A stretch of 64,000 bases of DNA from Cinnamomum chago (Eukaryota > Streptophyta > Magnoliopsida > Laurales > Lauraceae): contig CP142457.1 of assembly GCA_038049695.1 (NCBI GenBank), forward strand, positions 59,702,501-59,766,500. The letters are read 5' to 3'. Below, in pieces: positions 1,671-62,144 of the stretch (position 1 is the stretch's first letter; every line of letters starts with the position of its first letter). The notes beneath the pieces are model-generated. The model worked only from the letters and a program-made list of their open reading frames with translations. It was not told where the DNA came from and made no database searches. The translations under genes and the position numbers were made by a program.

Positions 1671-1887
1671 TATTTTATTTTGAGGAAATCAACATGTTTA
1701 AAGTAAACTTTCTAGAAGGTTTCCCTTTGACTGGGATGTCCAGATGAATCTGGAAATTTCTGTCTACGGGCCCTAATAGCCCACCCATGGGCAACCGAGG
1801 CGATGTTAGACCCATTTGGGTTCAGGCTCAAATAAGCCCACAAATTAAGGCCCCAAAACCCAGTCACGTATTGTCTAGTTCTGACTC

Positions 1888-3832
1888 CATCCAGCATCAC
1901 ACAGGATTGGCCTTTGATCTATTCCAAAAACTGAACTCAAAGATCGCTAAGGGCTCCTTTTGTCTTAAGTTAGACATCTCCAAAGCATTTGACAAGCTGA
2001 ATTGGACTTTCCTCTTCTCTGCCCTCAAGTTCTTTAAGTTCTCTGAGGAATGGATTTCCCTGATAAAAGAGTGTGTTTGCACTTCAAAGTGCTCAGTGCT
2101 CATCAACAGCAGGCCCCAAGGATTTTTCAGCTCCTCTAGTGGCATCAGACAGGGAGACCCCTTGTCTCCATACCTTTTCATTCTAGCTGAGGAAATTTTG
2201 AGCCTCCACCTCAACAACCTTCAGCTCCAAGGCCTCATCCTTCCACTCTCCAAGGTTCCAAACACCCCCTGCCATCTGCTATATGCGGATGATATCCTAA
2301 TATTTATGAAAGGGGCAGCCACAAGTGTTTCAATCCTCCAAGACCTCCTGGAGACTTATCAATTGGCTTCAGGTCAATTCTTTAATTTGCAGAAGAGTCA
2401 CCTGATCATTGGCAAATGCAGTTCAAGAAGGAAGAGAAGTATCAGCTCCACCCTCGGAATTCAAGAAGCCTCAACCAGTCTCAAGTACTTGGGCACCCCA
2501 ATCTGTTTTGGCACTCCTAAAAGAAGACATTTCCTTCCTTTGTTAGATGCAGTCCAGGCAAAACTCTCAGCTTGGAAAGCTAAAGTGCTGTCGTTTGCTG
2601 GCAGACTAACCCTCATCAAGTTCGTTATCTCTAGTCTTCCAATCCACTTGGCAGCAATAATTCCTCTGCCTGTCTCAGTTAGCAAAGAGATAGAGCGCCT
2701 GATGAGGCAGTTCCTCTGGTCTGGGAATGCTACCAACCAAAAGGTTAACTACATCAGCTGGTCTACAGTCACCCTCCCTAAGGCTGAAGGTGGTTTGGGT
2801 ATCAGGAAAATAGCAGAGGTGAATACTGCATCTTTTCTCAAGCTTGGATGGCAAGCTTCTACCTCAAATTCTCTCTGGCCTCAATGGTTCAAGAATTGTT
2901 ACTTTAAATTTCGTCCCATATGGAGCTCAGAAAACACTGGCTATGGCTCAAGTATCTGGAAGAAAATCCGAAGATCAGCTCATATTATCCATCAGGGAAG
3001 CTCCTGGATCCTAGGCAATGGCCAGAGCATCAACGCCTGGCATGATTCCTGGACAGACAGTGACCCAATCTCAACAAGCTTCCCAGGTCATCCTTTTCCA
3101 AAAGATCAGCGTCTCTCTTCTCTGTATCAATCAGGGACGTGGGTTCCTCCAGAGCACATGTCTCCTTCCATCCAGCAGCACCTTCTTCTTCTCCTCAAGG
3201 ATCAATCTTTAATTCCAGGCTCTAGTGATACTCTTAGATGGAGAGACACTTCAGATGGGAAGCTTTCTCTAAGTTCTGCTTGGCAAAAAATCAGACACAG
3301 AGCCCCTCGTCTTCCATGGCCAAAGTTGGTTTGGAATTCCCTTTCCCCTCCAAGAGTCAACTGCTTTGGGTGGCGACTGATGCACAACAGACTTCCTTCA
3401 GACACTTGGCTCAAGCGGCTAGGAATTTCCCTTGCCTCAAGATGCATCCTCTGTAGAGCTGAAGAAGACACTGTCGGTCACCTCTTCTTCAAATGTGAAG
3501 TAGCTAAAACTATCTGGTCCTGGATGCTCCAAGCGGCTGAGGTTCCCCCCCCTTCCATTTTTTCAGCTTCCACCCTGTGGACGTCCTTCTCCTCAGCTTC
3601 AGATGCCAATGGTTACAAGCTCATGGCTGCTATTTTCATCAATGTAATATACAACATATGGAAAGCTCGGAATGAAGCAATCTTTGAAGCTCGCAGACCC
3701 TCCTTCCACTCCATTCAGGCCAACCTAATTGAAGCAATTTCCTTCTCTCTCAAGCATATGAAATCACCTTTTGTCAGTCCCCACCTCAACGCTATGGTTG
3801 CTTCCTTGAGAGTTAATTCAGATCACTGCTAG
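1888..3832 (+). pseudogene. LINE ORF2 fragment: reverse transcriptase and zf-RVT region
   Basis: This is non-LTR reverse transcriptase, which copies LINE RNA into DNA at the target site. Visible motifs are KLDISKAFD (motif A), SSGIRQGDPLSPYLFIL (motif B) and YADD (catalytic motif C), followed by KYLGTPI. The C-terminal zf-RVT segment has PRVNCFGWRL, then a CxxC and HLFFKC zinc-ligand pattern. The frame is unbroken to the stop at 3832, which is long for a dead copy. It is open upstream to an ATG at 1787, but 1787-1887 is copia leader, so that start is accidental. Without the endonuclease domain and 5' end it cannot mobilise itself. Confidence 0.9.
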
Positions 3833-4798: not shown

Positions 4799-5629
4799 TT
4801 GAGCATTTTTTCCCTTTATATTCCAGCATTGACTCCCGCTGCCTTGAATGGACATCTCTCGAGCATTCCAATGTTAAATGGATCAAATTTCACTGATTGG
4901 AAAGATGAACTTTTATTAACCTTGGGCTGCTTAAACTTGGACGCTGCAATTATGGAACCCAAACTTGCTGATCTTATTGAAAATAGCTCTCAAGTTGCGA
5001 GAGCATATTATGAAAAATGGACCAACCGTCTAAGTCTTATTATAATCAAAAGATCCATAGCTAAAAATATCCGTGGTTTTATCCCGGATAATGAAAATGC
5101 AAAGGCCTACCTCAAATCTGTGAAGCAGCAATTTCAAGCATCTAATAAGGCTTTAACAGCTACTTCAATTGCCAAATTATCTTCAATGAAATATGATAGA
5201 TCTAGCGGTATCAAGGAACATATCATGGAAATGAGGGATATAGCGGCCCAACTCAACTCTCTAGAAATGACAATTTCTGAAAATTACATAGTCCAATTTA
5301 TTTTGAACTCCTTGTCCCCTCAATTTGGCCCTTTCAAAATTTCATATAATACTCATAAGGAGAGATGGACTACAAATGAGTTGGTCTCAATGTGTGTCCA
5401 AGAAGAAGGTAGACTTAGGCAGGAAGGGCAGTTATACAAAATGAATTTCATCTCCAACATCCTTTCAAACAAGAAAACATATCCCACGGGTAAGAAAGGT
5501 CAAAAAAAAAAGAAAGGCAAGAAACCTACTTGGACTGACCAAGTCGGGAAGAAAGGTAGTGAACCAAGGTGCTTCTTCTGCAGCAAAAAGGGACATCTGA
5601 GGAAAGACTGCTTGAAGAGACAGAAATGA
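4799..5629 (+). pseudogene. Copia gag region with CCHC zinc knuckle
   Basis: Encodes a copia capsid-like (gag) polypeptide that would package element RNA. The N-terminal part includes PMLNGSNFTDWKDELLLTLG, typical of plant copia gag. A lysine-rich stretch follows, then a C-x2-C-x4-H-x4-C zinc knuckle (CFFCSKKGHLRKDC) near residues 258-271. No ATG precedes the conserved start in frame; the open frame begins with TTG at 4799, so the original start is lost or lies upstream. It ends at a stop where the gag-pol frame would continue, so it counts as a broken part of the element. Confidence 0.85.
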
Positions 5630-5639
5630 TTTGAATCTA

Positions 5640-8600
5640 GAGGTATAAATAATTCTTTTGTTTGTTATGAAAGAAATCTTTTAAATGTTCCTTCAAATAC
5701 TTGGTGGATTGATTCTGGCGCCATTGTTCATGTGGCAAATTCCATGCAGGGTTTTCACTCAAGTCGGAGACCAACCAATGATCAAAGAAACATTTTTATG
5801 GGAAACCGGCTGGAGGCTGAACTGAAAGCGGTGGGGACTTGCAGATTGATTCTTGATTATGGATTCTAGTTGGACCTTAATACCACTTTTTATGTTCCTA
5901 CGATTAATAGAAATTTAATTAATTTCTTTATCTAGACTTGATTTAGAAGGTTGTACCTTCTCTTTTGGACATAGTACATTGAGTATTTATAAGAATCAAG
6001 TTTTAATTAGTTGTGGTATTTTATGTGATGGTCTTTATAAATTGAAGCTGGATCCATATTTTGCTAGTTCCTTACTTATCTTGCATGAGAATAATATTAT
6101 GAATGTTGGTATTAAGAGAGGAATCTTGAATGAAAACTCCACAATTTTGTGGCATAAAATGTTAGGACACATCTCTCAAGAGAGATTAAAGAGATTAGTA
6201 AATCACGGGGTGTTGAGAGCCATAGATTTTACTGATTTTGGTGTTTGTATAGACTGTATAAAAGGTAAGCAGACCAAAAACACCAATAAACATAAGGCCA
6301 CAAGACGTTTAGAACCACTTGAATTAATCCACACAGATATTTGTAGTTATTTTCCTACACCATGTTATAGTGGTCAAAAATACTTTATCACCTTTATTGA
6401 TGATTTCATTAGATATGGATATGTCTACCTGTTATATGAGAAATCATAATATTTAAAAACCTTTGAAATCTACAAGGCTGAAGTTGAAAAACAGTTAGAC
6501 GGAAAAATAAAGGTTGTGAGATTTGATAGGGGTGGAGAGTATTATGAGAGATATGATGAATCGGGTCAAAATCCTGACCCATTTGTAAAATTCCTGGAAA
6601 GTCATGGCATTCGTGCTGAATATACATTGCCTGGCTCCCCATATCAAAATGGTGTGGCTGAAAGACGTAATAGAACGCTTATGGAAATGGTACGGAGTAT
6701 GTTAAGTAATTCTAAATTACCTGACTCTATGTGGGGAGAAGGCCTAAAAATAGCTGCATATATCCTAAACCGTGTACCCACTAAGGCTGTTCCTAAAACT
6801 CCTTACGAGTTATGGACAGGTAAGAAGCCAAGTTTAGGACATCTGCATGTTTGGAGTTGTCCAGCTAAAACTAAAATTTATAACCCTCAAGAGAGAAAAT
6901 TGGACCCTAAGACTATCAGTGAGTATTTTATTGGATATCCTGAAAGGTCCAAAGGTTTTAGATTTTACTGTCCTACTCATACCACTAGAATTGTTAAAAC
7001 CAGAAATGCCAGATTCATAGAAAATGATGACATTAGTGGGAGCAATGCACCACAAAATGTGGTATTTGAAGAACATCGGTTACCTATTCATGTACCGATT
7101 GAAACGACTAGAGTTGGTATTCCAACTAACTTCGTTCAGAATGATACGATGGAAATACAACCTACCATACCAGATGCACCACTAGATGAGAATGTCACTC
7201 ATAATAATATAATTGAAGATATTATTCATCCGAATCAAAATTTAGCTGAACCAGAAGCTTTAAGAAGATCTCAAATATCTAAGAGATCTGCTATATCTGA
7301 TGACTATATTGTTTATCTCCAAGAATCTGATTTTGACATAGGTGTTAAAGAAGATTCAGTAACAATTTTCACAGGCCATTAAAGAAGATGATTCGAATAA
7401 ATGGATTGATGCCATGCAAGAAGAGTTAAAATCCATGTCATTAAATAAAGTTTGGGATCTCGTCGAATTGCCTCAAGGGTCTGCAACTATAGGATGTAAA
7501 TGGATCTTTAAGACCGAGCGAGACTTAAAGGGCAAAATCGAACGATTTAAGGTCAGACTTGTAGCTAAGGGATTTACTCAAAGGCAAAATATTGATTATA
7601 AAGAGACATTTTCACCAGTTTCTTCGAAGGACTCTTTTTGAATCATAATGGCATTAGTAGCTCATTTTAATTTAGAGTTACATCAAATGGATGTGAAAAC
7701 AACGTTCTTCAATGAGAATTTATCTGAAGAGGTATATATGAAACAACCAAAAGGATTTGAGGAAAAGAGCAAATAAAAACTAGTTTGTAAATTAAAGAAA
7801 TCTATATATGAACTTAAACAAGCTTCAATGCAATGGTATATTAAGTTCCATCATACCATTACCTCCTTCAGGTTTAAAGAAAACATTGTTGATCAATGTA
7901 TATACCTGAAGATCAGTGAGAGCAAGTTCATTATTTTAGTCCTATATGTAGATGACATTCTACTTGCTAGTAGTGATCTTGGCCTACTACATGCAACAAA
8001 AGAGTACCTCACAGAGAATTTTGAAATGAAAGATATGGGTGAAGCATCGTTTGTGCTTGGAATTGAGATTAATAGAAACAGATCTCGATGACTACTAGGA
8101 CTTTCACAGAAAGCCTATATTAATAGAGTTCTTGAAAGATTCAATATGCAGAATTGTTCTGGAGGAAAAGCACCTATATCAAGAGGTGATCTATTCTAAA
8201 AAAATCAACGTCCAAGAAATGACATCGAGAGAAAACAGATGCAAGATATTTCATATGCTTCCGTTGTAGGAAATCTTTTATATGCTCAGACTTGTACTCG
8301 TCTAGACATCAGTTTTACTGTTAGTATGTTGAGAAGGTATCAGTCTAACCTCGGCATGGTACATTGGAAAGCAACAAAGAAGGTCATGTGATATTTACAA
8401 GGGACTAAAGAATATTTGCTCACTTATAGAAAATTATATCACTTGGAAGTGATTGAATATTCAGACTCAGATTTTGCTGGGTGTCTCGACACAAGGAGAT
8501 CTACATCATGATACATTTTTCTCCTTGCTGGTGGGGTTGTTTCGTGGAAAAGTGTTAAATAGACTACAACTGCTTCTTCCACATTTCAAGCAGAATTTGT

Positions 8601-11102: not shown

Positions 11103-16633
<5,531 letters not shown>

Positions 16634-28134: not shown

Positions 28135-29023
28135 TACGGATCATCAGTTCAGATGTGCCAACCTTCTTTCGTTCGATTTCTCTAAGCATAATTTGAAGCT
28201 TCTTTTCATGTGTAACTGCTGTTGCATGGGGTCCTAAAGAACCCATTGTGATAGAGGAGGTGCTTGTCGATCCTCCCCAGAAAATGGAAGTCCGAATCAA
28301 GGTCGTTTTCACTTCCATCTGCCATACCGATCTCAGTGCTTGGATGGGCGAGGTATAAATCATCAAACACTTCAAATTAAAATGAAAAAAGAGAGTCCCA
28401 TGCATACATATGACAGATTCTCTTTTCTTCCAGAACGAGATGCAACGAGTTTTCCCTCCAATACTAGGCCATGAGGCAGCCGGGAATAACAACGGCCATA
28501 ACAACTCTGTCCTTCATCTTCCCACCATCTCAATCAATCTCAGCCAAATAATTACTTTCATTGATATTTGTATTCTATGTTTTACAGCATCGTGGAAAGC
28601 GTGGGAGAAGGAGTCGAGGACATTATACCAGGAGATCAAGTGGTTCCCCTCTTCAACGGTGAGTGTGGAAACTGCAACAATTGCAAATCGAACAAGACAA
28701 ACCTCTGCAATAAATTCCGAGTTAATCCCTTCAAAAGCGTAATGGTCAGTGATGGAAAATCGAGATTTTCGACAAGAGATGGAAAACCCATCTATCATTT
28801 CCTCAACACATCGACCTTCACTGAGTCTACGGCCCTTGACTCGGCCTGTGTCGTTAAGATGAACCCAAATGCTCCCTTATCAAAGAAGATGAGCCTGCTA
28901 AGCTGTGGGCTTTCTACAGGTAATGCTTACCCAGGCATTACATCTAATTCTAATCATCTAATACCTTGGTTATTCATATAAATTCAATTTCGTACTGTTA
29001 AAAACCATCATCATCTCTGTTAA

Positions 29024-46324: not shown

Positions 46325-46367
46325 CTACACTACTAGAGGATTGAGTATTGGCGACACCACTGGGCGG

Positions 46368-46389
46368 GCGACCGCCACTGGGCGGTCGC
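46368..46389. repeat. Left subterminal CACTA motifs
   Basis: gcgaccgcc (46368-46376) and ggcggtcgc (46381-46389) form an inverted pair 40 bp inside the left end. They match the many copies at the right end and are candidate transposase-binding sites, by analogy with the short subterminal repeats bound by TNPA in En/Spm. Confidence 0.7.
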
Positions 46390-46545
46390 AAATGCATACT
46401 TTTTTTTTTTTTCGTTCTTTTCCTTCCCTCCTTCTTTTCCTTTCGCTATTTCCGTTTCCCCTTTTCCTCTTTCCCTCCCGCGCTCCAGCATTTTCCTTCT
46501 CCCGCGCTCTCTCCCTCCTCGTCGTCGTCGATCGTCGTCGTCGGA

Positions 46546-46578
<33 letters not shown>

Positions 46579-46995
46579 GTCTCTCTGTTTCTCTCTGCAG
46601 TGAAGGAACTCGATCCTCTGTTTCTCTCCGCACCGACGGAACTCCGATCCCCTCCTGCCGCACCAGCACCAGCACGCCACCGCCGCAGCAGCACGACACG
46701 CCCTCTCTCTCTCTCCCTCCCCCTCTCGTTGCTCTATTTCTCTCTCTCTCACTCCCCGCCCTTCCTCTCCCTCTCGCTCTGGACTGTGCCCTACCGCCAC
46801 CAGTTCTCTTTGTTTCTCCTCCCTCCCTGCGCCGAAGCCGGATCTCTCTCTCTCCCTCTCCCTCTCTCCCTCTCTCTCTCTGTTTCTCTCTGCAGTGAAG
46901 GAACGGAGATCCCCTCCTGCCGCGCCAGCACCAGCACGCCAACGCCGCACCAGCACCAGCACGCCCTCTCTCTCTCCCTCCCCCTCTCGTTGCTC

Positions 46996-47038
<43 letters not shown>

Positions 47039-47117
47039 TCCTCTCCCTCTCGCTCTGCACTGTGCCCTACCGCCACCAGTTCTCTGTTTCTCCCTCCCTG
47101 CGCCGAATCCGCCACAG
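46390..47117 (+). promoter_or_regulatory. CT-rich duplicated leader of the CACTA element
   Basis: A polypyrimidine tract with CT runs holds two related segments of about 270-300 bp (about 46545-46840 and 46841-47110). Each carries ctgcagtgaaggaac, a caccagcaccagcacgcc-type block and ctgtgccctaccgccaccag. It ends cgccacag|gtactc, a good splice donor, so it is probably a 5' untranslated exon. Long open frames on both strands here are by-products of the CT repeats. Confidence 0.6.
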
Positions 47118-50100
47118 GTACTCATTCTCTCCCTCCTTCTCCCTCTCCCACTCACTTTATTTATGGTTGTCTTTGTTACATTACTTGATTATTGGTTTTT
47201 TGTGTTGTTTGATCTGTGAATGGGTGAGTGGATTATCGATGAATGAATGGGACTTTGTTTTTATATAAATGTTTTGTTGATGGCAGGGAAATTGATGGGT
47301 TTTTTGGTTTGTGATTTGGTTGATGTGTTTGAGATCTGTTTTCATGGGCTGATATAACCTCTAATTAGGGTTTAGAGGAAATGTTATAGTCCATCAGATC
47401 AGTACTAAGTGCCAATAGAACTGCACCCAAAACAAAAGGCCTGTAGCAAAAGTGATTGTTGGCCCAGAACTACAAAAATCCTCCAAGTGCTTGGTGGCAG
47501 GAGTGACTGTTGGAGGGGTTGCATTATTGCAATTTGAAGGAAGGGTTTCATCCAATGAAGATTTTCAGACAAAGAAGAATAAAATCACAACCACATAATG
47601 TATGGTTCTTCTTGGGAGAAATTGTGGTTGCTTCATTAAATAATTATCATTCAACAAAATCCATAATAGAAGAATGCGCAGTAGAGGAGAATCATCCTTA
47701 CAGTCCCTTTCTACAAGAACAAAGATACTTCAAAATGTTCAAGCAACCAAGTTTTCAAACTTAATTTTTATTGAACCCAAGTAAAATAGATGAACTCTTA
47801 GAACAAGAAAAACTTTATTTTTATGAAAAAAAAACAAGAATGTTACAAAGTCATTTTACTACTTTGACCTAACAAAAATATAGATAGAATAGGAATCATT
47901 ATAGATATAAATTTTATTAATTTAGAGAAGACTTGCAATAAAACATCAAGACAAATTATTTGGGAAATGCTTTCAAGAATATATTTACATGTGGGCACTC
48001 AGATTTGGCTGAAGCTAGGCCTACAATGAGGGATGTGATGAAGTTCTTGGATGGGGATTGTCCTCTGCCAGAAATTTCATCGAGCGGATGGAGCTCTCTA
48101 GTTGCATCTACAGTGAAAGCAGAGTTGGACTCTTCTAGTCCTTTCAGTAGTGCTAGTATGATGGAGAGGTCATTTTTTGACTCTTCATCCACTGTTGTTG
48201 CTGATTCACTCCTATCTGGAGGCCGTTGATGGTATTTAGGTTTTTTTAAGGGATAATGCTGTCTGTGTAAGATAATTAGCATAATGTTGACTTGTAATAC
48301 ATATGAGATGTGAAGAACTGCCAATAATTTGTACATGTTTTTGTACTAGCACTAAATCCTTCTCTCTCTGTTTTTTTATTTTTTTTATTTTATAGAATGC
48401 ATAAATATGAATTGAGTTCTTACAAACTCAAAGTCAAATGAGCTTAACAAAAGATTATTAAAAAGGTGAGAGTAAATGACATAAGGCAGGCTGAGATGTA
48501 GATGAAACTTCGACTTTCCTCTTATTTGAATCTTTGTATTGATGGCTGGCTGGCTTAGGCTTTTTTTTTATGTTCTTCAATCTTCATTTGATTCAATTTC
48601 CATTAAAGAGAAGGTTCTTTCATAGTCTTTTTTTTTTTATATATATTCACCTTTGATTTTTTGTTTTTAACCATTTAATAAAAAAAATATAAAGACAAAA
48701 TTCTTATGAATTTAATTACATGAAACAAAGAACCCCAAGTGCAATTTACACCAGCACCTAAAAATATTGGGAGACTGTAAGAGCTCCTTTACCAACCCAC
48801 CTTCAAATTCTTTCTTCTACAACAACTCCACAAAGTTATCACCAACCATCACCTAATACCAAAGTCATTCGCATAACTAACATTGGGTGTAGGAAGATGT
48901 TTTATTTAATTTACAAAGACCTTCAATACCAGAACCTGCACTACAAGATTTATGAGTATTTCAGAGAGATACTCAGATTTGTATTTTTGTTCTGTAAAAT
49001 TGAATTCCATCCAAGAAAACCCAGAATTCTCACACTTGTGGAACTCAATATTAAATGGTAAGATATTATAAAGAGAAGGCCCTTTTTGGCATTCTAGCTC
49101 GTACCTGCACCTTTGATGGTCATCCATTAAAGGGTGACCCTCAAAAGACTTCATACACCCATTGTCACCAGAAAAAACTACTCCATAATTAGAGTGTAGA
49201 TTCTCAAAGTTCTAGTTTGTAGTGTTATATTCTTCTAAAGAGTACAAAACAAACAGATGCATCCAATTCAAACCATGCAAAAAAAAAAAAAAAAAACCTC
49301 CACTTGTGTTTCCCTTATCTTCTTACCATAAAGTTTTTATGAACTGGGCACCTGTTACAAAGTTACAATTCGTCTTATGTAGCTTGTTTGTTTGGGTCAG
49401 TCCATTCCAAGGCAGTTTGTGATTTGGACAGCTTGGACTTTTTCGCCTGGTATGTCCCATATGTAAGTTGACAATAACACAAACCTTAACTTTGTGCAAA
49501 ACTAGCATGGAAGGGCTGCCCTTCTGGGCTTTTGGGGTTTATGTCCTTTGATCTCCACCTAGAGTTATCAAAAGGGTTGGGAAAAACATACTGATTCATT
49601 ACCTATCAGAATTCACCCAATAACTGGACGGGTTAGCTGGGAGAATGTTTTCCTAAGGTTGAACTCTAGAGCCAACATATGAATATTAGGCCCTTGGGTT
49701 AAAAATGGATCAGCAGTTGCCCTATAGGTAAACAGTTTGAGCTTGGACAAGCTTTAGACTAATGCTACCTGACTCCTGTCCAATCAAACTTGAAAAGCTT
49801 CTTCAAGTACTCATAGAGAAGGACAAGATCTTGCACACTATATATATATATCCGGAATAAATGGAAAGCTTTACTCTTTACCCCCTGTCCATTTATTGAT
49901 ACTATACTACTATGTAGGGGTTTTGGAATGCAATAAATTAGGACAAAACATAGGGACCATTTTCAGATTTTCCCAACAGTACTGTTACACACATACATGT
50001 ATAATTACATTCAATCACTTTCCTATTTCATCTTAAATTAAATCCCCATTTTGAGTTTTTTTAGAACAAAAGAACAATACCCAGACTTTCCTTACTTCCA

Positions 50101-50869
50101 GCAGTATGCTGCATGAAAACCAAACTGCCCTTACAAATTAGGAGAAAACATGAACAGTTGGGAATTTGTGTGAGAGAATAGCAATTTCATTAGATGCCAA
50201 ACATTGAGGGTTTTTACTCTCCAATTCATGCAATTTTACTTAAATTATAGGAGGGTGTTCTTGACTCTCCAATTCAAGATTTACTTATAGAAAATTTTAT
50301 ATTTGAAGATTTCATTGGTTGTGAACCTTTCATTATCAACTTATTCTATTCATTTGTATGCATTAGTGAAACTTAGACCCGTTCGAGAATTGTGTACGAC
50401 ATAAGTTCGGTAATCCTTGACGCGACGGATTGGGTCTTCGACTAGATTCGTTGTTCTTGTGATGTACATTCGAACTTTGTCGTATACAATTCTTGAATTG
50501 TCCAGTTCGGACAGTTTGAGAATGCAATTATACATCTTATACTCAATAGCTCATGCAAGTCTGATGTTAGACAGAGTTTCGGTTGATGTCCCATTGTTCT
50601 CTGGGTACATACATAGGTACGACTGATGTTGTACCTGTGTCGTGTACTTGGAGAACCACGCGGACATGCTGCCGAAATTTTGTTTGACTAGGGGACGAAG
50701 CATTCGAGTTGTTGAGTGCAAGTTGGATCGTGCATTCTCGAATGGGATAGGACCAACCACCTTGTAGTAAGTAGTTTGCAGTTTATGGATAGGTGACTTG
50801 CATGATGACACGGTACATTGGGTTAATTGTACTTGTTCATTTTAGACTTCCACAGAAGCACTTACGGAG
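47118..50869 (+). other. CACTA leader intron/spacer before the TNPD-like ATG
   Basis: A 3.7-kb AT-rich stretch without transposase coding. It contains a receptor-kinase-like fragment (47950-48229) and an unrecognised minus-strand open frame of 82 codons (48906-49154; HPLMDDHQRCRYELECQKG). Small AT runs occur near 49840. Confidence 0.5.
47950..48229 (+). pseudogene. Captured C-terminal tail of a lectin-type receptor kinase-like gene
   Basis: The frame reads CGHSDLAEARPTMRDVMKFL, then DGDCPLPEISSSGW, and continues through a Ser-rich tail to a stop at 48229. L-type lectin receptor kinases end subdomain XI with C.HP....RP.MR.V...LDGD.PLPE followed by a Ser-rich tail, so the match is in the right order and includes the natural C-terminus. 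No kinase catalytic core (HRD, DFG) lies upstream in the element. It is likely host sequence acquired by the CACTA element, in the same orientation as the transposase. The domain match is recognised by eye; acquisition is inferred. Confidence 0.65.
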
Positions 50870-53800
50870 ATGGACAAGAGTTGGATTGATTTACCGAATA
50901 GGATGTCTCGGGAATACATGGAGGGGATTAACCAGTTCATGGAATTTACCAATGGGTTTGACAATGAGTTCATCAGTTGTCCATGTAGAAAATGTGGGAA
51001 TCGGTATTATTACAGAAGAGAGATTGTCCGAGAGCATCTGATTCTGAACGGATTCTTGAAGGACTACAAGAACTGGATAAAACATGGAGAAGAGTATGTT
51101 TCCTGTCGCAGAGTGGAAATAGATGAAATTGAGGTGGATGATATGTCAGAGGCTGATCCGATGAACGTGATGTTAAATGATATCGCGTGCGGATTGGCAC
51201 CCGAATACTTCAGCGATGCGACTGAGGGGGCGGGTGGGAGTAATCCTCGCTCTGGTGCCGATGAAGAAGCCCTGAGATATTTTGAAATTTTAGACGATGC
51301 ACAGACAGAATTGTATCCTGGATGCAATGACTTCAGTAAATTGTCCTTTATTGTTGAGTTGTTACATTTGAAGGCATTGAACCTATGGTCTGACAAGTCT
51401 TTTGATATGCTCCTCCAGTTGTTGCATCGAGCGCTCCCATCCGGTGCAAAACTTGCTGAGTCCTACTATCAGGCTCGCAAGTTAACTGAAAATTTAGGCT
51501 TCACATATGAGACTCTGGATGCATGTCCGAACAATTGCATGTTGTTTAGGAATGAGAATGCCCATCTTGATAAGTGCATTGTGTGTCAGACTTCGAGATG
51601 GAAGGAGGACGGGGTTGGTTCCAATCGTCAGAATAGTTCTACAAATGTTATCAACCATGGCAAACTTGTGGCAGTAAAACAATTGAGATATTTCCCACTT
51701 AAGCCAAGGCTGAAGAGGCTTTTTATGTCATCAAATATTTCTAAACTGATGAGATGGCATGCCGAGAATAGCAGGGACGATGGTAAGTTGACCCATCCAG
51801 CAGATTCCCCAGCATGGAAAGACTTCGATCGGAGGAATCCAGACTTTGCCTTGGATTGTCGCAATGTGCGGCTTGGTTTGGCTGCAGATGGTTTCAGTCC
51901 GTTCAGATCCATGACTGGGGCAAATCACAGTACGTGGCCAGTTGTTTTGATACCTTATAATCTTCCGCCATGGATGTGTATGAAGCAACCTTTTCTTATC
52001 CTATCCACACTTATTGATGGACCAAGAGGACCAGGGGACAAGATTGATGTATATATGCAACCTCTGATAGATGAATTGAATGAATTATGGGCTGATGGTC
52101 TGATGACATTTGATGCCGAAGGCAATGAAATGTTTAAACTCCGCGCCGCATTATTATGGACAATCAACGACTTCCCTGCGTACGCCAACTTGTCGGGTTG
52201 GAGCACAAAGGGAGAGTTTGCATGTCCTTGCTGCAATAAGGAGAAGAAGTCAACTTGGTTGAAGCACGGCAGAAAATGGGCATACACGGGTCATAGGCGC
52301 TTTCTACCTCCATTGCATAGGTTCAGGAGGGACAAAGTGTCATTTGATGGGAGTCGAGAATATGGTCCAGCACCTCGAACAATGACGGGAGTTGACTTGT
52401 TGTCACAGCTCGAGCATGAGCAAATACGTACTGTGTATGATTTTCAAGATTTACTGGCCCCGGTGCTGCCTTCTATTCCCGGTGCAAGTAGAAGGCGAGG
52501 TCATAATTGGAAGAAAAAAAGTATTTTCTACGATTTACCATACTGGAAAGATAACTTACTCAGGCATAACTTAGATGTTATGCACATCGAGAAGAACGTT
52601 TGTGATAATATACTGTGGACCATTCTCGGTGCTCAGGGGAAGTCGAAGGATGGTGTCAATGCACGCCGTGACTTGGAAGAAATGGGCTTGAGAAAGCCGT
52701 TGCACTTGCAGTTGAGAGAGTCTAACAAGGCATACATGCCTCCTGCGCAGTACACGATGAGTAAAGATGAGAAAGATGTCTTCCTCTCAGTTCTGAAGGG
52801 TGTCAAGGTTCCTGACGGGTACTGTTCGAATATCGCAAAGCGTGTGAACATGAGAGAGAGAACATTACAGGGTTTGAAGAGTCATGACAATCATATTCTT
52901 ATTCAACAATTACTGCCTATCTCCATACGGAATTGTCTGCCTAAGAATGTTGTAGCGCCGTTGATTGAATTTAGTAACTTCTTCAGACAACTTTGTTCTA
53001 GAGTTCATCGAATTGATGAGTTGAATGGTTTGCAAGAGAGGATTGCTGTGACGTTGTGTCATTTAGAAAAAATTTTCCCACCTGCATTTTTCGATGTCAT
53101 GGTTCACTTGACCATACACTTAACCAGTGAAGCCCTGCTTGGTGGCCCCGTCCAATTCAGATGGATGTATCCGATCGAGAGGTATATGAACACATTGAAG
53201 AGATATGTTCGCAATAGAGCTCGTCCGGAGGCATCGATAGCAAAGGGGTATCTGATGGATGAGTGCACAAATTTCTGCGCAGCATATCTTAAAGAGAATA
53301 TTGAAACAAAGTTAACTAGGCCCTCGCGGATTAATGATGGTCCAGTTGGGGATGGCACGCCATTTGATCTTAACAATATTGAGTGGATTCAAGCTCACCG
53401 GTGGGTGTTGTTCAACACCCCATCTGTTGTGGCTTTCACTCGGTAAGTGATCACTCATTTATGCGTGTAACTTGTCAGTTTTTTGCCTAAAACATCACAC
53501 TTGTCGTTAACACGTATTATGCATCGCAGGACACACATTGATGAGCTGAAACGGGACATGCCTCATGCTACAGAGAATGAAATTCATCAGTCTCATTATC
53601 AGTCATTTCATGAATGGTTCAAGAATCACGTATGTACTCAATCATTAGGAGTAGTTTCACTTGTTCTTGTCATATTACTTTCATGTAGTGATATTCACTG
53701 ATTACATGCATTGCGTAGGTATGTAGCTTACGAAGAACGGGCGATTCTTATTTGACTGATGAAATGAACCAGTTAGCTGATGGCCCATTTATAACGGCCC

Positions 53801-54330
53801 GACGTTACACAACTTGTGATGTCAACGGCTTTCGATTTCGCATCAAGGATGTAGATGAGAAACGAGCGACGCAAAATAGTGGGCTCGGTTGTCCATCCGT
53901 CGATGCTGGTTACTATTATGGCCGGTTGAAAGATATTGTTGAAGTTGTGTATAATCACGGGCTAAAGTTTCTATTGTTTAAGTGTGATTGGGTGGATCCC
54001 ATCCGAGGGGTGAAAACAGATAATTACCAGTTTACACTGGTAAATTTTAACAATTTGTTATACCGTGATGATCGAATAAGTGCCGAACCGTACATTCTGT
54101 CTTCAATGGCTGAGCAAGTCTACTATGTTAGAGATCCAAAAGATCCTAACTGGCAGGTTGCAGTTAAAATGTCAAGGAGGGGAGTGTATCAGATTGAATG
54201 TGATGAGCCAGATATTGATGCATTCGCCCAACAAGAACTTGACCAGAATACAGTTGTTCAACATGATGAAGATATTAATTGGGTTCGGGAAACCATTGAT
54301 GGAGATACAGTTGACTTACATGACCAATAA
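50870..54330 (+). CDS. TNPD-like CACTA transposase (Transposase_21), 3 exons
   Basis: The CACTA transposase cuts element ends. Exons 50870-53442, 53530-53629 and 53719-54330 have GT/AG borders and give an open frame of 1094 codons. The N-terminus MDKSWIDLPNRMSREYMEGI with CPCRKCGNRYY is the Transpos_assoc finger domain. The centre has the Transposase_21 core (FSPFRSMTGANHSTWPVVLI, GPRGPGDKIDVYMQPLIDEL, CPCCNK). SNFFRQLCSRVHRIDELNGL through RWMYPIERYMNTLKRYVRN is DUF4218. The last exon holds DUF4216 (FLLFKCDWVDPIRGVK, YVRDPKDPNWQV). Length and domain order are as in full plant TNPD proteins. No stops or frameshifts were found. The TNPA-like gene follows 110 bp downstream. Confidence 0.93.
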
Positions 54331-54439
54331 ACGGTTGGGAACTTTTTCAGTAATGTTAAATTTTAGTGTAAATACTTTTTAAATGTTAATTTCAATTATC
54401 TTGTTTAATGAAATTTATCTTACAAACATTTGAACAGAT

Positions 54440-57400
54440 ATGTCAGGACGAAAGAGGAGTTTGGCATCCGCATCTGAGCCGAGCCCATCCACTCCAGTGG
54501 ATGCTTCAGCGTCGTCCAGTGCGGCATCTCCACCATCTTCAGCACCACCATCAGGAGATACACTGACTGGTATAAGTTGATTTAATTAAAACATTTTAAT
54601 TCTAGCAAATTATTTTATTTCAATTTAATTAGATTATCTCGAATTTAAACAGGTTCTACGAGCACGGGCCCATCTTCCAGCAGGGGGAGAGGCCCTGCTA
54701 GAGGGATCCGGACATGGAATTCCGAGCATCCCATTGACGTAGAGTTTGATGAGTCATATCATCCGGTGGGCCCTCATGCTCGCCAGCTCATCAGCCAGTT
54801 AGGACATATGGTCCGGGATCCATATGTATTTCCTTTGACCACACATGATTGGGACACATTCCCGGTGGCGACGCTAGATCGGACCTGGCAGCAGGTCAAG
54901 GTAATAATTTAACATTTTCTCCTCAGGATGTGTCAATTTAAACCATAACTTAATGAAATATATTTTGTCAATGAAAAATTATTTGTCCTTTTCAGGACAA
55001 TGTGAGAGCATGTCCTGAGCTCTTCCGGCCAGTTTGCATGTCTAAGTGCCGGAAGATGTGGAAGGATCATAAAAATAAAATAAAGACGCAGCACTGGAAG
55101 CCTCATCAGGGTGCGCCTGACATACTTCAGCGAGTTCCGACTGGCGTTCTCCCTGATCAGTGGACTCAGCTCGTCGGGTACTGGGCGAGCGAGGAGGCTC
55201 AGGTGAGAAACTTGTACTTTTTTATTTTATTTTTAACATTTTACTAATAACTAATGTAACTAACAAAAATCCCTACTAATAAATATTGAAAACAGAGAGT
55301 GTCTGCTACGAATGCGCAGAACCGCGCATTGCAGGGTCCTGCACATAGGTTGGGGACTCGACACATCACCCAGGTCCGCCACGAGGTAAAAGGTTATATA
55401 GTACATTTAATTTATGTTCTTGTCATTCTGTATGATATTATACTATTAATACATTCCTCCACCAACCAGTTGCGTACCGAGGGTGTTCCGGTTGATAGGA
55501 TGTCCGTCTGGATGCGTTCTCGAGATCCTCGCCATCCAGAGGTTGCAGCTATCTTCGTAAGTTTTTATATTGAACTGTTTAAATTATGTTTCTATTTGTA
55601 TGTCTTGTTATGCATAATAATATACTAAATGAATGAACTACGCAGGCCCAGTATCAGTCACGCTTGGAGGAGTTACCCGAGGAGGAGCGCAGATTGCCAT
55701 CACGGAGGGATGCGATATTCCACTCCGTCGTTGGCCGGGATGGGCATGGATACACTCTGACGTATGGGACGGGCATTCCACGCTCGCACATCACGCGATC
55801 GGAGTCATCCGGTGCTAGCTCCTCCCAGGGCATACACTTCCGTACGGATGAGGAGATTCAGGCGATGCTGCAGTCCATGAGGGCATCGATCAGAGAGGAG
55901 CTCAGGGCAGAGGTCAGGGCAGAGGTCAGTGCAGAGATTAGTGCAGCGATGAGGGCCGAGTGGAGAGCGGAGATAGCAGAGCTTGAGAGTCGTCTATCAC
56001 AGAGTCGCGCCCCGCTTGCTTCAGACCCACCACCCACTACTCAGGTTAGTAAGAAAAAAATTTCGTACATATAAATTCTCAATTATGTAATTGATGCATC
56101 AATACTTATGTCTTTTTTTTTATGTTTTTTACTGTATAATAAATAATTACAGGCACCAGACGCTGGCAGCGGCCACAGGGCTAGACATGACTTCGGTGGA
56201 GAGGGCAGTCATGATTTAGCAGGCTCGACTGATCCTGACCAGGTAAAATTATTTTTTATAATTCAAGATTTCAACATTTAAGTTAAAAGCTTAACATAAA
56301 ACTTAGAAAACGAGCCTCCGGGCGCCCAAAACGAGCAAACGGGCTCCGTTGCCCGTGAAACTTGACGGGCACGGGCACCTAAACATTCATGACTTGCAGG
56401 AACTGACGGAACGAGAATCCGACTTCCGGATTGCTCGTAATGTTGAAAAGTAGGTTTAAGTTAGAACGTTATGTTAAAACTTAGAAAACGAGCTTCCGGG
56501 CGCTCAAAACGAGCAAACGGACTCCGTTGCCTGTAAAACTTGACGGGCACGTGCCCGTAGTTATTCATGACTTGCAGGAACTGACGGAACGAGAATCCGA
56601 CTCCCGGATTGCTCGTAATGTTGAAAAGTAGGTTTAAGTTAGAACGTTAAGTTAAAACTTAGAAAACGAGCCTCCGGGCGCTCAAAACGAGCAAACGGAC
56701 TCCGTTGCCCGTAAAACTTGGCGGGCACGTGCCCTTAGTCTTTCATGACTTGCAAGAACTGACGGAACGAGAATCCGACTCCCGGATTGCTCGTAATGTT
56801 GAAAAGTAGGTTTAAGTTAGAACGTTAAGTTAAAACTTAGAAAACGAGTCTCCGGGCGCTCAAAACGAGCAAACGGACTCCGTTGCCTGTAAAACTTGAC
56901 GGGCACGTGCCCGTAGTTATTCATGACTTGCAGGAACTGACGGAACGAGAATCCGACTCCCGGATTGCTCGTAATGTTGAAAAGTAGGTTTAAGTTAGAA
57001 CGTTAAGTTAAAACTTAGAAAACGAGTCTCCGGGCGCTCAAAACGAGCAAACGGACTCCGTTGCCTGTAAAACTTGACGGGCACGTGCCCGTAGTTATTC
57101 ATGACTTGCAGGAACTGACGGAACGAGAATCCGACTCCCGGATTGCTCGTAATGTTGAAAAGTAGGTTTAAGTTAGAACGTTAAGTTAAAACTTAGAAAA
57201 CGAGTCTCCGGGCGCTCAAAACGAGCAAACGGACTCCGTTGCCTGTAAAACTTGACGGGCACGTGCCCGTAGTTATTCATGACTTGCAGGAACTGACGGA
57301 ACGAGAATCCGACTCCCGGATTGCTCGTAATGTTGAAAAGTAGGTTTAAGTTAGAACGTTAAGTTAAAACTTAGAAAACGAGCCTCCGGGCGCTCAAAAC

Positions 57401-60400
57401 GAGCAAACGGACTCCGTTGCCCGTAAAACTTGGCGGGCACGTGCCCTTAGTCTTTCATGACTTGCATGAACTGACGGAACGAGAATCCGACTCCCGGATT
57501 GCTCGTAATGTTGAAAAGTAGGTTTAAGTTAGAACGTTAAGTTAAAACTTAGAAAACGAGCCTCCGGGCGACCAAACTGAGCAAACGGTGTCCGTTGCTC
57601 GTGAAACTTGACGGGCACGGGCCCCTATTCATTCCTGACTTGCAGGAACTGACGGAACGAGATTCCGACTCCCGCATCGATCGTAATGTTGAAACGTAGG
57701 TTTGAGTTAGAACGATAAGTTAAAACTTAGAAAACGAGCCTCCGGGCGACCAAACTGAGCAAACGGTGTGTGTTGCTCGTGAAACTTGACGGGCACGGGC
57801 CCCTAGTCATTCCTGACTTGCAGGAACTGACGGAACGAGATTCCGACTCCCGGATTGATCGTACAGTTGAAACGTAGGATTCAGTTAGAACGTTAACATA
57901 AAACTTAGAAAACGAGCCTCCGGGCGACCAAACTGAGCAAACGGTGTCCGTTGCTCGTGAAACTTGACGGGCACGGGTCCCTAGTCATTCATGACTTGCA
58001 GGAACTGACGGAACGAGATTCCGACTCCCGGTTTGATCGTACAGTTGAAACGTAGGTTTAAATTAGAACGTTAACTTAAAACTTAGAAAACGAGCCTCCG
58101 GGCGACCAAACTGAGCAAACGGTGTCCGTTGCTCGTGAAACTTGACGGGCACGGGCCCCTATTCATTCCTGACTTACAGGAACTGACGGAACGAGATTCC
58201 GACTTCTGGATTGATCGTAATGTTGAAACGTAGGTTTGAGTTAGAACGATAAGTTAAAACTTAGAAAACGAGCCTTCGGGCGACCAAACTGAGCAAACGG
58301 TGTCCGTTGCACGTGAAACTTGACGGGCACGGGCCCCTAGTCATTCCTGACTTGCAGGAACTGACGGAACGAGATTCCGACTCCCGGTTCTATCGTACAG
58401 TTGAAACGTAGGTTTGAGTTAGAACGTTAACTTAAAACTTAGAAAACGAGCCTCCGGGCGACCAAACTGAGCAAACGGTGTCCGTTGCTCGTGAAACTTG
58501 ACGGGCACGGGCCCCTAGTCATTCCTGACTTGCAGGAACTGACGGAACGAGATTCCGACTCCCGGATTGATCGTACAGTTGAAACGTAGGATTGAGTTAG
58601 AACGTTAACTTAAAACTTAGAAAACGAGCCTCCGGGCGACCAAACTGAGCAAACGGTGTCCGTTGCTCGTGAAACTTGACGGGCACGGGCCCCTATTCAT
58701 TCCTGACTTGCAGGAACTGACGGAACGAGATTCCGACTCCCGCATCGATCGTAATGTTGAAACGTAGGTTTGAGTTAGAACGATAAGTTAAAACTTAGAA
58801 AACGAGCCTCCGGGCGACCAAACTGAGCAAACGGTGTGTGTTGCTCGTGAAACTTGACGGGCACGGGCCCCTAGTCATTCCTGACTTGCAGGAACTGACG
58901 GAACGAGATTCCGACTCCCGGATTGATCGTACAGTTGAAACGTAGGATTCAGTTAGAACGTTAACATAAAACTTAGAAAACGAGCCTCCGGGCGACCAAA
59001 CTGAGCAAACGGTGTCCGTTGCTCGTGAAACTTGACGGGCACGGGTCCCTAGTCATTCATGACTTGCAGGAACTGACGGAACGAGATTCCGACTCCCGGT
59101 TTGATCGTACAGTTGAAACGTAGGTTTAAATTAGAACGTTAACTTAAAACTTAGAAAACGAGCCTCCGGGCGACCAAACTGAGCAAACGGTGTCCGTTGC
59201 TCGTGAAACTTGACGGGCACGGGCCCCTATTCATTCCTGACTTGCAGGAACTGACGGAACGAGATTCCGACTTCTGGATTGATCGTAATGTTGAAACGTA
59301 GGTTTGAGTTAGAACGATAAGTTAAAACTTAGAAAACGAGCCTCCGGGCGACCAAACTGAGCAAACGGTGTGTGTTGCTCGTGAAACTTGACGGGCACGG
59401 GCCCCTAGTCATTCCTGACTTGCAGGAACTGACGGAACGAGATTCCGACTCCCGGATTGATCGTACAGTTGAAACGTAGGATTCAGTTAGAACGTTAACA
59501 TAAAACTTAGAAAACGAGCCTCCGGGCGACCAAACTGAGCAAACGGTGTCCGTTGCTCGTGAAACTTGACGGGCACGGGTCCCTAGTCATTCATGACTTG
59601 CAGGAACTGACGGAACGAGATTCCGACTCCCGGTTTGATCGTACAGTTGAAACGTAGGTTTAAATTAGAACGTTAACTTAAAACTTAGAAAACGAGCCTC
59701 CGGGCGACCAAACTGAGCAAACGGTGTCCGTTGCTCGTGAAACTTGACGGGCACGGGCCCCTATTCATTCCTGACTTGCAGGAACTGACGGAACGAGATT
59801 CCGACTTCTGGATTGATCGTAATGTTGAAACGTAGGTTTGAGTTAGAACGATAAGTTAAAACTTAGAAAACGAGCCTTCGGGCGACCAAACTGAGCAAAC
59901 GGTGTCCGTTGCACGTGAAACTTGACGGGCACGGGCCCCTAGTCATTCCTGACTTGCAGGAACTGACGGAACGAGATTCCGACTCCCGGTTCTATCGTAC
60001 AGTTGAAACGTAGGTTTGAGTTAGAACGTTAACTTAAAACTTAGAAAACGAGCCTCCGGGCGACCAAACTGAGCAAACGGTGTCCGTTGCTCGTGAAACT
60101 TGACGGGCACGGGCCCCTAGTCATTCCTGACTTGCAGGAACTGACGGAACGAGATTCCGACTCCCGGATTGATCGTACAGTTGAAACGTAGGATTGAGTT
60201 AGAACGTTAACTTAAAACTTAGAAAACGAGCCTCCGGGCGACCAAACTGAGCAAACGGTGTCCGTTGCTCGTGAAACTTGACGGGCACGGGCCCCTATTC
60301 ATTCCTGACTTGCAGGAACTGACGGAACGAGATTCCGACTCCCGCATCGATCGTAATGTTGAAACGTAGGTTTGAGTTAGAACGATAAGTTAAAACTTAG

Positions 60401-61443
60401 AAAACGAGCCTCCGGGCGACCAAACTGAGCAAACGGTGTGTGTTGCTCGTGAAACTTGACGGGCACGGGCCCCTAGTCATTCCTGACTTGCAGGAACTGA
60501 CGGAACGAGATTCCGACTCCCGGATTGATCGTACAGTTGAAACGTAGGATTCAGTTAGAACGTTAACATAAAACTTAGAAAACGAGCCTCCGGGCGACCA
60601 AACTGAGCAAACGGTGTCCGTTGCTCGTGAAACTTGACGGGCACGGGTCCCTAGTCATTCATGACTTGCAGGAACTGACGGAACGAGATTCCGACTCCCG
60701 GTTTGATCGTACAGTTGAAACGTAGGTTTAAATTAGAACGTTAATTTAAAACTTAGAAAACGAGCCTCCGGGCGACCAAATTGAGCAAACGGTGTCTGTT
60801 GCTCGTGAAACTTGACGGGCACGGGCTCCTAGTCATTCCTGACTTGCAGGAACTGACGGAACGAGATTCCGACTTCTGGATTGATCGTAATGTTGAAACG
60901 TAGGTTTAAATTAGAACGTTAACTTAAAACTTAGAAAACGAGCCTCCGGACGACCAAACTGAGCAAACGGTGTCTGTTGCTCGTGAAACTTGACAGGCAC
61001 GGGCCCCTAGTCATTCATGACTTGCAGGAACTGACAGAACGAGATTCCGACTCCCGGTTCTATCGTACAGTTGAAACGTAGGTTTGAGTTAGAACGTTAA
61101 TTTAAAACTTAGAAAACGAGCCTCCGGGCGACAAAATTGAGCAAACGGTGTCCGTTAGTCGTGAAACTTGACGGGCACGGGTCCCTAGTTATTCCTGACT
61201 TGCAGGAACTGACGGAACGAGATTCCGACTCCTGGATTGATCGTAATGTTGAAACGTACGTTAAAATTTTAATTTTAATTCTTAATTTTTTTATATTTAG
61301 TATAAATTGCCAATTTTTATACTTATCTTTTAATATTTATTTTTCTTTTTCTGTTCAGGTTTGAGAGCATCGGATATATACCACGGCATCCGGCACGGAA
61401 AATTTTTCTTTTTGTTGTAATTGTAATGGATATATTTTACTGA
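54440..61443 (+). CDS. TNPA/Transposase_24-like gene containing a 28-unit mini-exon array
   Basis: The second CACTA gene. Exons: 54440-54569, 54653-54900, 54996-55202, 55296-55385, 55470-55556, 55646-56044, 56153-56242, one 50-nt mini-exon (last copy 61206-61255) and 61359-61443, all GT/AG. With one mini-exon the frame is open for 461 codons. The N-terminus is Ser/Pro-rich. The core CRKMWKDHKNKIKTQHW, DQWTQLVGYWASEEAQ, then NAQNRA and HITQVRHE matches the Transposase_24 plant En/Spm family. A charged heptad-like stretch (SIREELRAEVRAEVSAEISA) suggests a coiled coil for dimerisation. The ATG lies 2 nt after an AG acceptor (tgaacag), so it may be spliced from the same pre-mRNA as TNPD, as in En/Spm. 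The choice of mini-exon and the C-terminal exon are inferred from frame and splice consensus. Confidence 0.75.
56284..61255 (+). repeat. 28 tandem copies of a 178-bp exon-intron unit
   Basis: The constant word acttagaaaacgag recurs every 178 bp from 56301 to 61109. Each unit holds a cttgcag acceptor, a 50-nt exon (GAACTGACGGAACGAGA...) and a gtaggt or gtacgt donor; first exon end 56449, last exon end 61255. Units 1-7 are one subfamily (exon ending ...GTTGAAAA). Units 8-28 are another (ending ...GTTGAAAC) with six recognisable variants in order. Two copies have altered acceptors: unit 3 (tgcaagaact, 56751) and unit 7 (tgcatgaact, 57463). Confidence 0.97.
61206..61255 (+). other. Last mini-exon of the array
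   Basis: The 50-nt exon reads ELTERDSDSWIDRNVE plus two bases and ends at donor gtacgt rather than the gtaggt of other units. Its downstream intron (61256-61358) is AT-rich and unlike the array introns. This makes it the default partner of the final exon at 61359. Confidence 0.7.
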
Positions 61444-61576
61444 AACTTTTGTAATATTTGAATGCAATTAATATAAGACTTTCTTTTTTTATTTGTAATT
61501 TTAATTGATGGTACTAGTTGTATATATTTAGTCTTTGTCATCAGTAATTTTAATTGATGGCCGTAGATATATAGCT

Positions 61577-61600
61577 ACAGGTACAGGTACAGGTACAGGT
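61577..61600. repeat. ACAGGT hexamer repeat, four copies
   Basis: acaggt is repeated four times in a row downstream of the TNPA-like stop, inside the CACTA right end. Confidence 0.85.
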
Positions 61601-61659
61601 ATAAAAAAATGAAAAAAATTGATAAAATACGGGAATTTAATTTTAAAAAAAAAGGGGGG

Positions 61660-62125
61660 CTTTAGCGGCCGCCAGTGGCGGTCGCTAATAGTGCTATTAG
61701 CGGTCGCTAATAGTTCCAAAAAAAAAAAAAAAAAAAAATTTCAAAAATAAAAAAGCATTAGCGACCGCCATATGAGTATTAGCGACCGCCATGGCGGTCG
61801 CTAATACTAAAAAAAATAAAAAAAATAAAAAAAAATTTGAAAAAAATAAGCCATTAGCGACCGCTAATATAGTATTAGCGACCGCCATGGCGGTCGCTAA
61901 AAGTCCAAAAAATTTTTTTTAAATTTATTCGCGACCGCCACAAAAATTATTAGCGACCGCCATCTGGCGGTCGCTAAAACTATTAGCGACCGCCAGTGGC
62001 GGTCGCTAATACCTTTAGCGACGCCGTTTTCGCGGCCGCTGCTTGGCGGTCGCTAGGCGGTCGCTAATACTCTTTAGCGACCGCCAGTTGACTTTTAGCG
62101 ACGGCAACTGGCGGCCGCTAAAAGT
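61660..62125. repeat. Right subterminal CACTA repeats
   Basis: Roughly 15-19 full or partial copies of TTAGCGACCGCC in both orientations, often as inverted pairs joined by at, ag or atct, separated by poly(A) spacers. They are strongly denser than at the left end and can form hairpins. They are candidate transposase-binding sites. Confidence 0.9.
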
Positions 62126-62144
62126 CAAGTTTCTACTAGTGCTA

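Follow-up and report, generated by a model that had tools for sequence, protein, structure and literature searches.

A 178-bp tandem array with an exon-like unit, probably grown from part of a gene inside a CACTA element

The stretch of DNA analysed here (the window, 64 kb) is plant-like, to judge from its genes and elements. It carries on the forward strand a complete-looking CACTA (En/Spm) element of 15,814 bp (46328..62141), whose ends and target-site duplication were read directly: the 5' end reads CACTACTAG... at 46328 on the forward strand, the 3' end at 62141 reads CACTAGTAG... on the reverse strand, and CTA stands on each side as a 3-bp target-site duplication. Membership of the CACTA group follows from these CACTA-type terminal inverted repeats with their duplication, and from a TNP2-type transposase accompanied by a Transposase_24-type second gene (PF02992, PF13960, PF13963 and PF13952; PF03004). 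The TNP2-type gene (50870..54330 as a whole, forward strand) was identified by Pfam on two open pieces, with matches to Transpos_assoc (7e-23), Transposase_21 (5.8e-94), DUF4218 (2e-47) and DUF4216 (1.9e-20). Subterminal repeats of the TTAGCGACCGCC type were read in both orientations at the 3' end (61661..62141, forward-strand coordinates). Near the 5' end, a TC-rich direct duplication (46542-47156) has 76% identity over a 360-column alignment. Elsewhere in the window, Pfam was applied to eight open frames, three of which had no match. A LINE-like reverse transcriptase with zf-RVT lies at 1748-3829, and pieces of a copia-type retrotransposon (Retrotran_gag_2 and SH3_retrovirus) occupy separate open frames at 4799-7379. 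Two open frames with ADH_N matches (alcohol dehydrogenase; 11606-12040 and 28565-28978) look alike by eye and may be copies of a single gene separated by 17 kb.

The second gene of the element opens with seven exons on the forward strand (54440..56242; 54440-54569, 54653-54900, 54996-55202, 55296-55385, 55470-55556, 55646-56044 and 56153-56242), which form an open frame of 1251 nt, match Transposase_24 (PF03004) with an E value of 2.3e-18 and end in phase 0. The six GT-AG introns between them measure 83-108 nt and are 73-83% AT, against 40-46% AT in the exons. Beyond exon 7, near the 3' end of the element, follows a tandem array of 28 units of 178 bp (56277..61262, forward strand). A preliminary description of this locus, which had placed the array inside a transposase gene, holds in its essentials. 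The exact period and the unit number that it gave were reproduced: Tandem Repeats Finder (TRF) reports period 178, 28.0 copies, 94% matches and 0% indels, 50-nt segments begin at 56400+178k with all 27 spacings exactly 178, and the array matches itself at 0.941 when shifted by 178 but at no more than 0.301 when shifted by 170-177 or 179-186, which is far from chance.

Despite the exact period the units are not identical: there are 16 different unit sequences, with 9 versions of the 50-nt segment and 8 different peptides. They fall into two sequence groups, units 1-7 and units 8-28, with higher-order blocks; if the same letter marks units with at most three differences, their order is A BCBBBC DEFGHI DEFG EFGHI DEFJKL. 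Such a long, head-to-tail, homogenised array of one monomer with block structure has the make-up of a satellite. The longest exact repeat inside it is 966 bp. The unit was found nowhere else in the 64-kb window, a scan of the entire window against Rfam (gathering thresholds) gave no match, and no match to a 29-nt pattern from the array turned up in viral and prokaryotic DNA collections. The transposase protein gave 4 and 12 pattern matches in the viral and prokaryotic contig collections and no relative by tblastn; these absences say little, since the collections hold viral and prokaryotic DNA. Three of the 28 units were folded (units 1, 4 and 13; 56272-56449, 56806-56983 and 58408-58585), and these are more stable than mononucleotide shuffles (z -3.4, -3.8 and -2.7) and carry short palindromes in their GC-rich part.

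Each unit had been described as a splice-like acceptor, a 50-nt open segment and a GT donor. The open segment and the GT directly 3' of it are present in all 28 units (GTAGG in 27, GTACG in one), but the AG directly 5' of it in only 26 (TGCAG in 25, TACAG in one), being replaced by CAA and CAT in units 3 and 7. On a scoring matrix for splice sites, the AG acceptors reach 4.5 in 25 units and 3.9 in the remaining one; the value of 4.5 lies above every acceptor of exons 2-7 (six sites, -1.8 to 3.9) and above that of the last exon (3.5). The array donors score 0.4-2.8 on the same matrix, and six of the seven donors of the gene are stronger. As stretches of sequence, the splice-like sites in the units are real matches; as sites of splicing they are putative.

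The 50 nt may not be the whole exon. The frame stays open for another 93 nt on the 5' side, so that 143 nt run without internal stop in 28 of 28 units, and CTTAG directly precedes this longer stretch in every unit. We do not regard the exon as certainly 143 nt, however: AT content and open frame speak for it, the score of CTTAG and the codon usage against it. The 93-nt stretch is about 46% AT and in this exon-like, as a mean taken with units 3 and 7 mis-set. As compared to 4.5 for TGCAG/G, CTTAG/A scores -1.0, which lies within the acceptor range of exons 2-7, and the 93 nt taken by themselves show a codon usage no better than chance (z 0.7-1.1, five units scored). In dinucleotide shuffles of units 1, 4 and 13, the stretch is open by chance in a given frame in 31-57% of cases. 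For the 50-nt segment, codon usage in frame 0 is 0.03-0.14 (five units) versus 0.12 for exon 7 and 0.04 for exon 4, two exons that themselves belong to the codon-usage table used for scoring; expressed as z, the segment has 1.2-1.5, exons 4 and 7 have 2.0, and one intron in six goes as high as 1.3. The coding signal of the 50-nt part is weak in this sense, an exon-like score from a test of little power. The 128-nt intervals, taken as introns in the preliminary description, average 51% AT and 23% T versus 73-83% AT in the six other modelled introns. If the exon is 143 nt long, neighbouring units cannot be spliced to each other, because the remaining spacer of 35 nt is too short for a plant intron. 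A mere intron repeat was also considered for the array and rejected, since the open frame runs on from exon 7.

In unit 1 (open segment 56307..56453, forward strand) the 93 + 50 nt continue the frame of exon 7, with the core at 56400-56449, and end in AAG TAG, the stop lying at 56451-56453. In 27 of the 28 units the donor shares bases with such an in-frame TAG. Only unit 28 (61113..61255, forward strand) lacks it, reading GTACGT instead of GTAGGT or GTAGGA, and it borders a candidate last intron (intron 8; 61256..61358, forward strand) of 103 nt, 85% AT and with a pyrimidine-rich 3' end. Unit 28 is, on the letters, a candidate for the ancestral exon 8. Under the 50-nt parse, splicing in exactly one unit would carry the frame through the candidate last exon (61359..61443, forward strand) to a TGA at 61441-61443; without any unit the product gains a V and stops, and every pair, every triple and all 28 units together lead to a stop just within the second copy. 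Under the 143-nt parse, the one pair and the one triple that were tried both stop early. The claim that the unit is in frame with the surrounding gene accordingly holds for a single unit and fails for none, two, three or 28. This rule is no evidence of design, because the unit length leaves a remainder of two on division by three.

The substitutions in the open segments fit a neutral model, with neither purifying nor clear diversifying selection. Over the 143 nt of the 15 distinct units among units 2-28, 46 minority alleles comprise 14 synonymous and 32 nonsynonymous changes and no stop, where random placement gives 14.2, 30.2 and 1.6 and yields zero stops in 19% of trials; variable columns are spread over codon positions 1, 2 and 3 as 15, 13 and 14. 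None of seven chosen unit pairs departs from the null. The lowest one-sided P is 0.07, for units 1 and 13, which show no synonymous change in 12 codons and thereby stay within the null. Six columns are fixed between units 1-7 and 8-28, all of them amino-acid changing. That selection keeps the frame was considered and rejected, as the neutral null fits. Units 2-28 have the same diversity, 0.079, in their 128-nt and 50-nt parts; the two values are 0.035 and 0 in units 2-7, and 0.047 and 0.064 in units 8-28.

For 22 of the 28 units, another unit exists that differs at no more than one position, whereas the distance to the nearest unit is 21 for unit 1, 10 for units 27 and 28, 5 for unit 26, and 3 for units 2 and 8. 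A homogenised interior, diverged edges and block duplications are the picture of satellite homogenisation. There are 52 variable columns over 172, yet no indel occurs among the 28 units, in spacer and open segment alike, and since the spacer is equally free of indels, the coding frame does not explain their absence. Freely drifting DNA is expected to show less length conservation than this array. A length of 178 bp is close to that of nucleosome-repeat satellites, and a preferred monomer length near the nucleosome repeat could explain the indel-free array.

We propose that a satellite-type array has grown inside the CACTA element by local duplication of a 178-bp stretch of its second gene, and give this reading a probability of roughly 0.65. 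The seed would have consisted of the last 30 bp or so of intron 7, the coding-looking segment (50 to 143 nt) and a few bases of the intron that follows; duplication of blocks or unequal exchange would then have raised the array to 28 units. The units would share splice-like sites and frame as copies of one piece, not through selected exon choice. Both edges of the array bear on this origin. The tail of intron 7 from 56277 can be aligned without indel to spacers farther along the array (against unit 4, 5 of 30 bases mismatch, as counted by eye), and unit 28 runs into the 103-nt, 85% AT stretch with its pyrimidine-rich acceptor at 61359. Duplication of the end of intron 7 together with exon 8 and the first bases of intron 8 is accordingly the simplest history. 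Of the two readings offered by the preliminary description, the evidence favours a satellite that took in an exon, given the blocks, the homogenised interior and the diverged edges, and because "exon" and "intron" are similarly variable and the synonymous to nonsynonymous pattern is neutral.

Several observations count against local duplication with satellite-type growth. The AG is strong and kept in 26 of 28 units, and GT and open frame in all; the 50-nt part is invariant in units 2-7 while the 128-nt part varies, and the reverse holds in units 8-28. No indel separates the units, the coding signal is weak, and the exon ancestry of the segment is a candidate one. As to expression, transcripts most likely enter unit 1 and stop at the TAG at 56451, leaving the rest of the array as a 3' untranslated repeat. 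This is the plainest predicted product, with 48 residues after exon 7 under the 143-nt parse. Some transcripts may instead pass over the earlier units and use unit 28 with the last exon, which would restore the presumed older end. With seed, two junctions, block duplications and surrounding gene all still in place, the locus shows in readable form how a satellite was apparently born from part of a gene inside a mobile element, and if transcripts use internal units, it is a natural test of a splicing machine that faces 28 near-identical exons.

A 178-bp family from elsewhere in the genome might instead have inserted here as a captured satellite, its exon likeness and right phase being due to chance. 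The array of Chenopodium quinoa is taken as such a capture by its authors, in the available part of their paper (PMC8978399), and both the chance openness of the 93-nt stretch in the shuffles and the modest codon-usage z of the segments (0.7-1.8) are compatible with it. We nevertheless consider capture unlikely: the left edge grades into intron 7 in register, the right edge passes through GTACGT into AT-rich sequence with a good acceptor, as local duplication of an exon would leave it, and the unit has no second location in the window.

The array could also act as a splice trap, in which numerous strong acceptors combined with weaker donors destabilise the second gene's transcripts or render them heterogeneous, and the array brakes the element; the second protein or its C-terminus would then be lowered. 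Acceptors at 3.9-4.5 against donors at only 0.4-2.8 would suit such a role, as would the early stop after all pairs and triples of units, and a soybean CACTA gene with erratic splicing is on record in the part of the source available (PMC2613891). There is no sign of selection for a trap, and we hold this explanation to be very unlikely.

The other reading of the preliminary description likened the layout to Dscam: a cluster of mutually exclusive exons, one of 28 copies being spliced in to give up to eight different 17-residue segments near the C-terminus. According to the title of one study (PMC3228551), mutually exclusive exons are reportedly recognised by equal length, homology and one open frame, and these the array has (28 of 28 units, frame 0, 143 nt). 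The copies encode eight different peptides, the acceptors are strong in 26 units, and a single unit alone keeps the frame to the last exon, whereas zero, two, three or 28 bring an early stop. The frame rule, however, would hold for every exon with a length not divisible by three. Two further marks of such clusters, intact splice sites in every copy and coding selection on the copies, are both wanting, since units 3 and 7 have lost the AG (with GT in 28 of 28) and 14 synonymous to 32 nonsynonymous changes match the null of 14.2 to 30.2. Identical copies in blocks contribute no diversity, the intervals are U-poor at 51% AT, and 27 donors carry an in-frame TAG. In a simple test against mononucleotide shuffles, pairing of the flanking introns with the units shows no excess larger than about one standard deviation, with a mean of -14.6 kcal/mol versus -12.4 (sd 3.1) for intron 7 and -17.4 versus -18.1 kcal/mol (sd 3.7) for intron 8. 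The Dscam-like reading is unsupported, and an exon cluster is highly improbable. So, to the same degree, is a transposon that generates diversity in the manner of Dscam from a 28-copy cassette of an accessory-gene exon, with single copies spliced and expansion of the satellite type. If true, such a cassette array would vary the C-terminal end of a protein with a possible role in binding the element's termini. An assembly error, in which the repeat is real and the number or order of units wrong, can hardly be credited: exact repeats of up to 966 bp do exceed short-read length, but long reads resolve a repeat of 0.97 kb, and both unit groups can be told apart, as can the edges.

Known systems resemble the array in part. 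In C. quinoa, a 16.5-kb CACTA-like element carries 32.5 copies of a 171-bp monomer (5.5 kb) near its 3' end, beyond the coding part (PMC8978399), similar in size and position to the 28 copies of 178 bp (5.0 kb) near the 3' end of the 15.8-kb element described here. Unlike here, the quinoa array is a captured satellite in its authors' view, and the available portion of their text does not mention an exon in the unit (PMC8978399). The printed quinoa monomer and our array share short matches only, with E values of 0.74 or worse among the matches listed. The CficCl-61-40 satellite of Chenopodium was seeded by a CACTA tnp2 fragment of about 40 bp (PMC7320549), and a review table places it among transposon-derived satellites (PMC9659126, table entry). 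As in our array, CACTA coding sequence has become a tandem monomer, and higher-order units are mentioned in the accessible part of that report (PMC7320549). There the tnp2 seed lies in deletion derivatives and forms a major genome-wide family (PMC7320549), whereas here the candidate seed is an exon of the second gene, and element ends and transposase look intact. With clusters of the Dscam1 type (PMC9013439, as far as its available text describes them) the array shares tandem, equal-length, exon-like copies in one gene and single inclusion as the only way to keep the frame; it differs from them in that its substitutions are neutral, copies in blocks are identical, two acceptors are gone, a stop lies on the donor and the simple test showed no excess pairing larger than about one standard deviation. 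No title or abstract opening among those listed reported an array of exons in a plant CACTA gene, a search that covered few subscription papers and is no proof of absence. We file the array as transposon-borne satellite DNA, in a variant with an exon-like unit.
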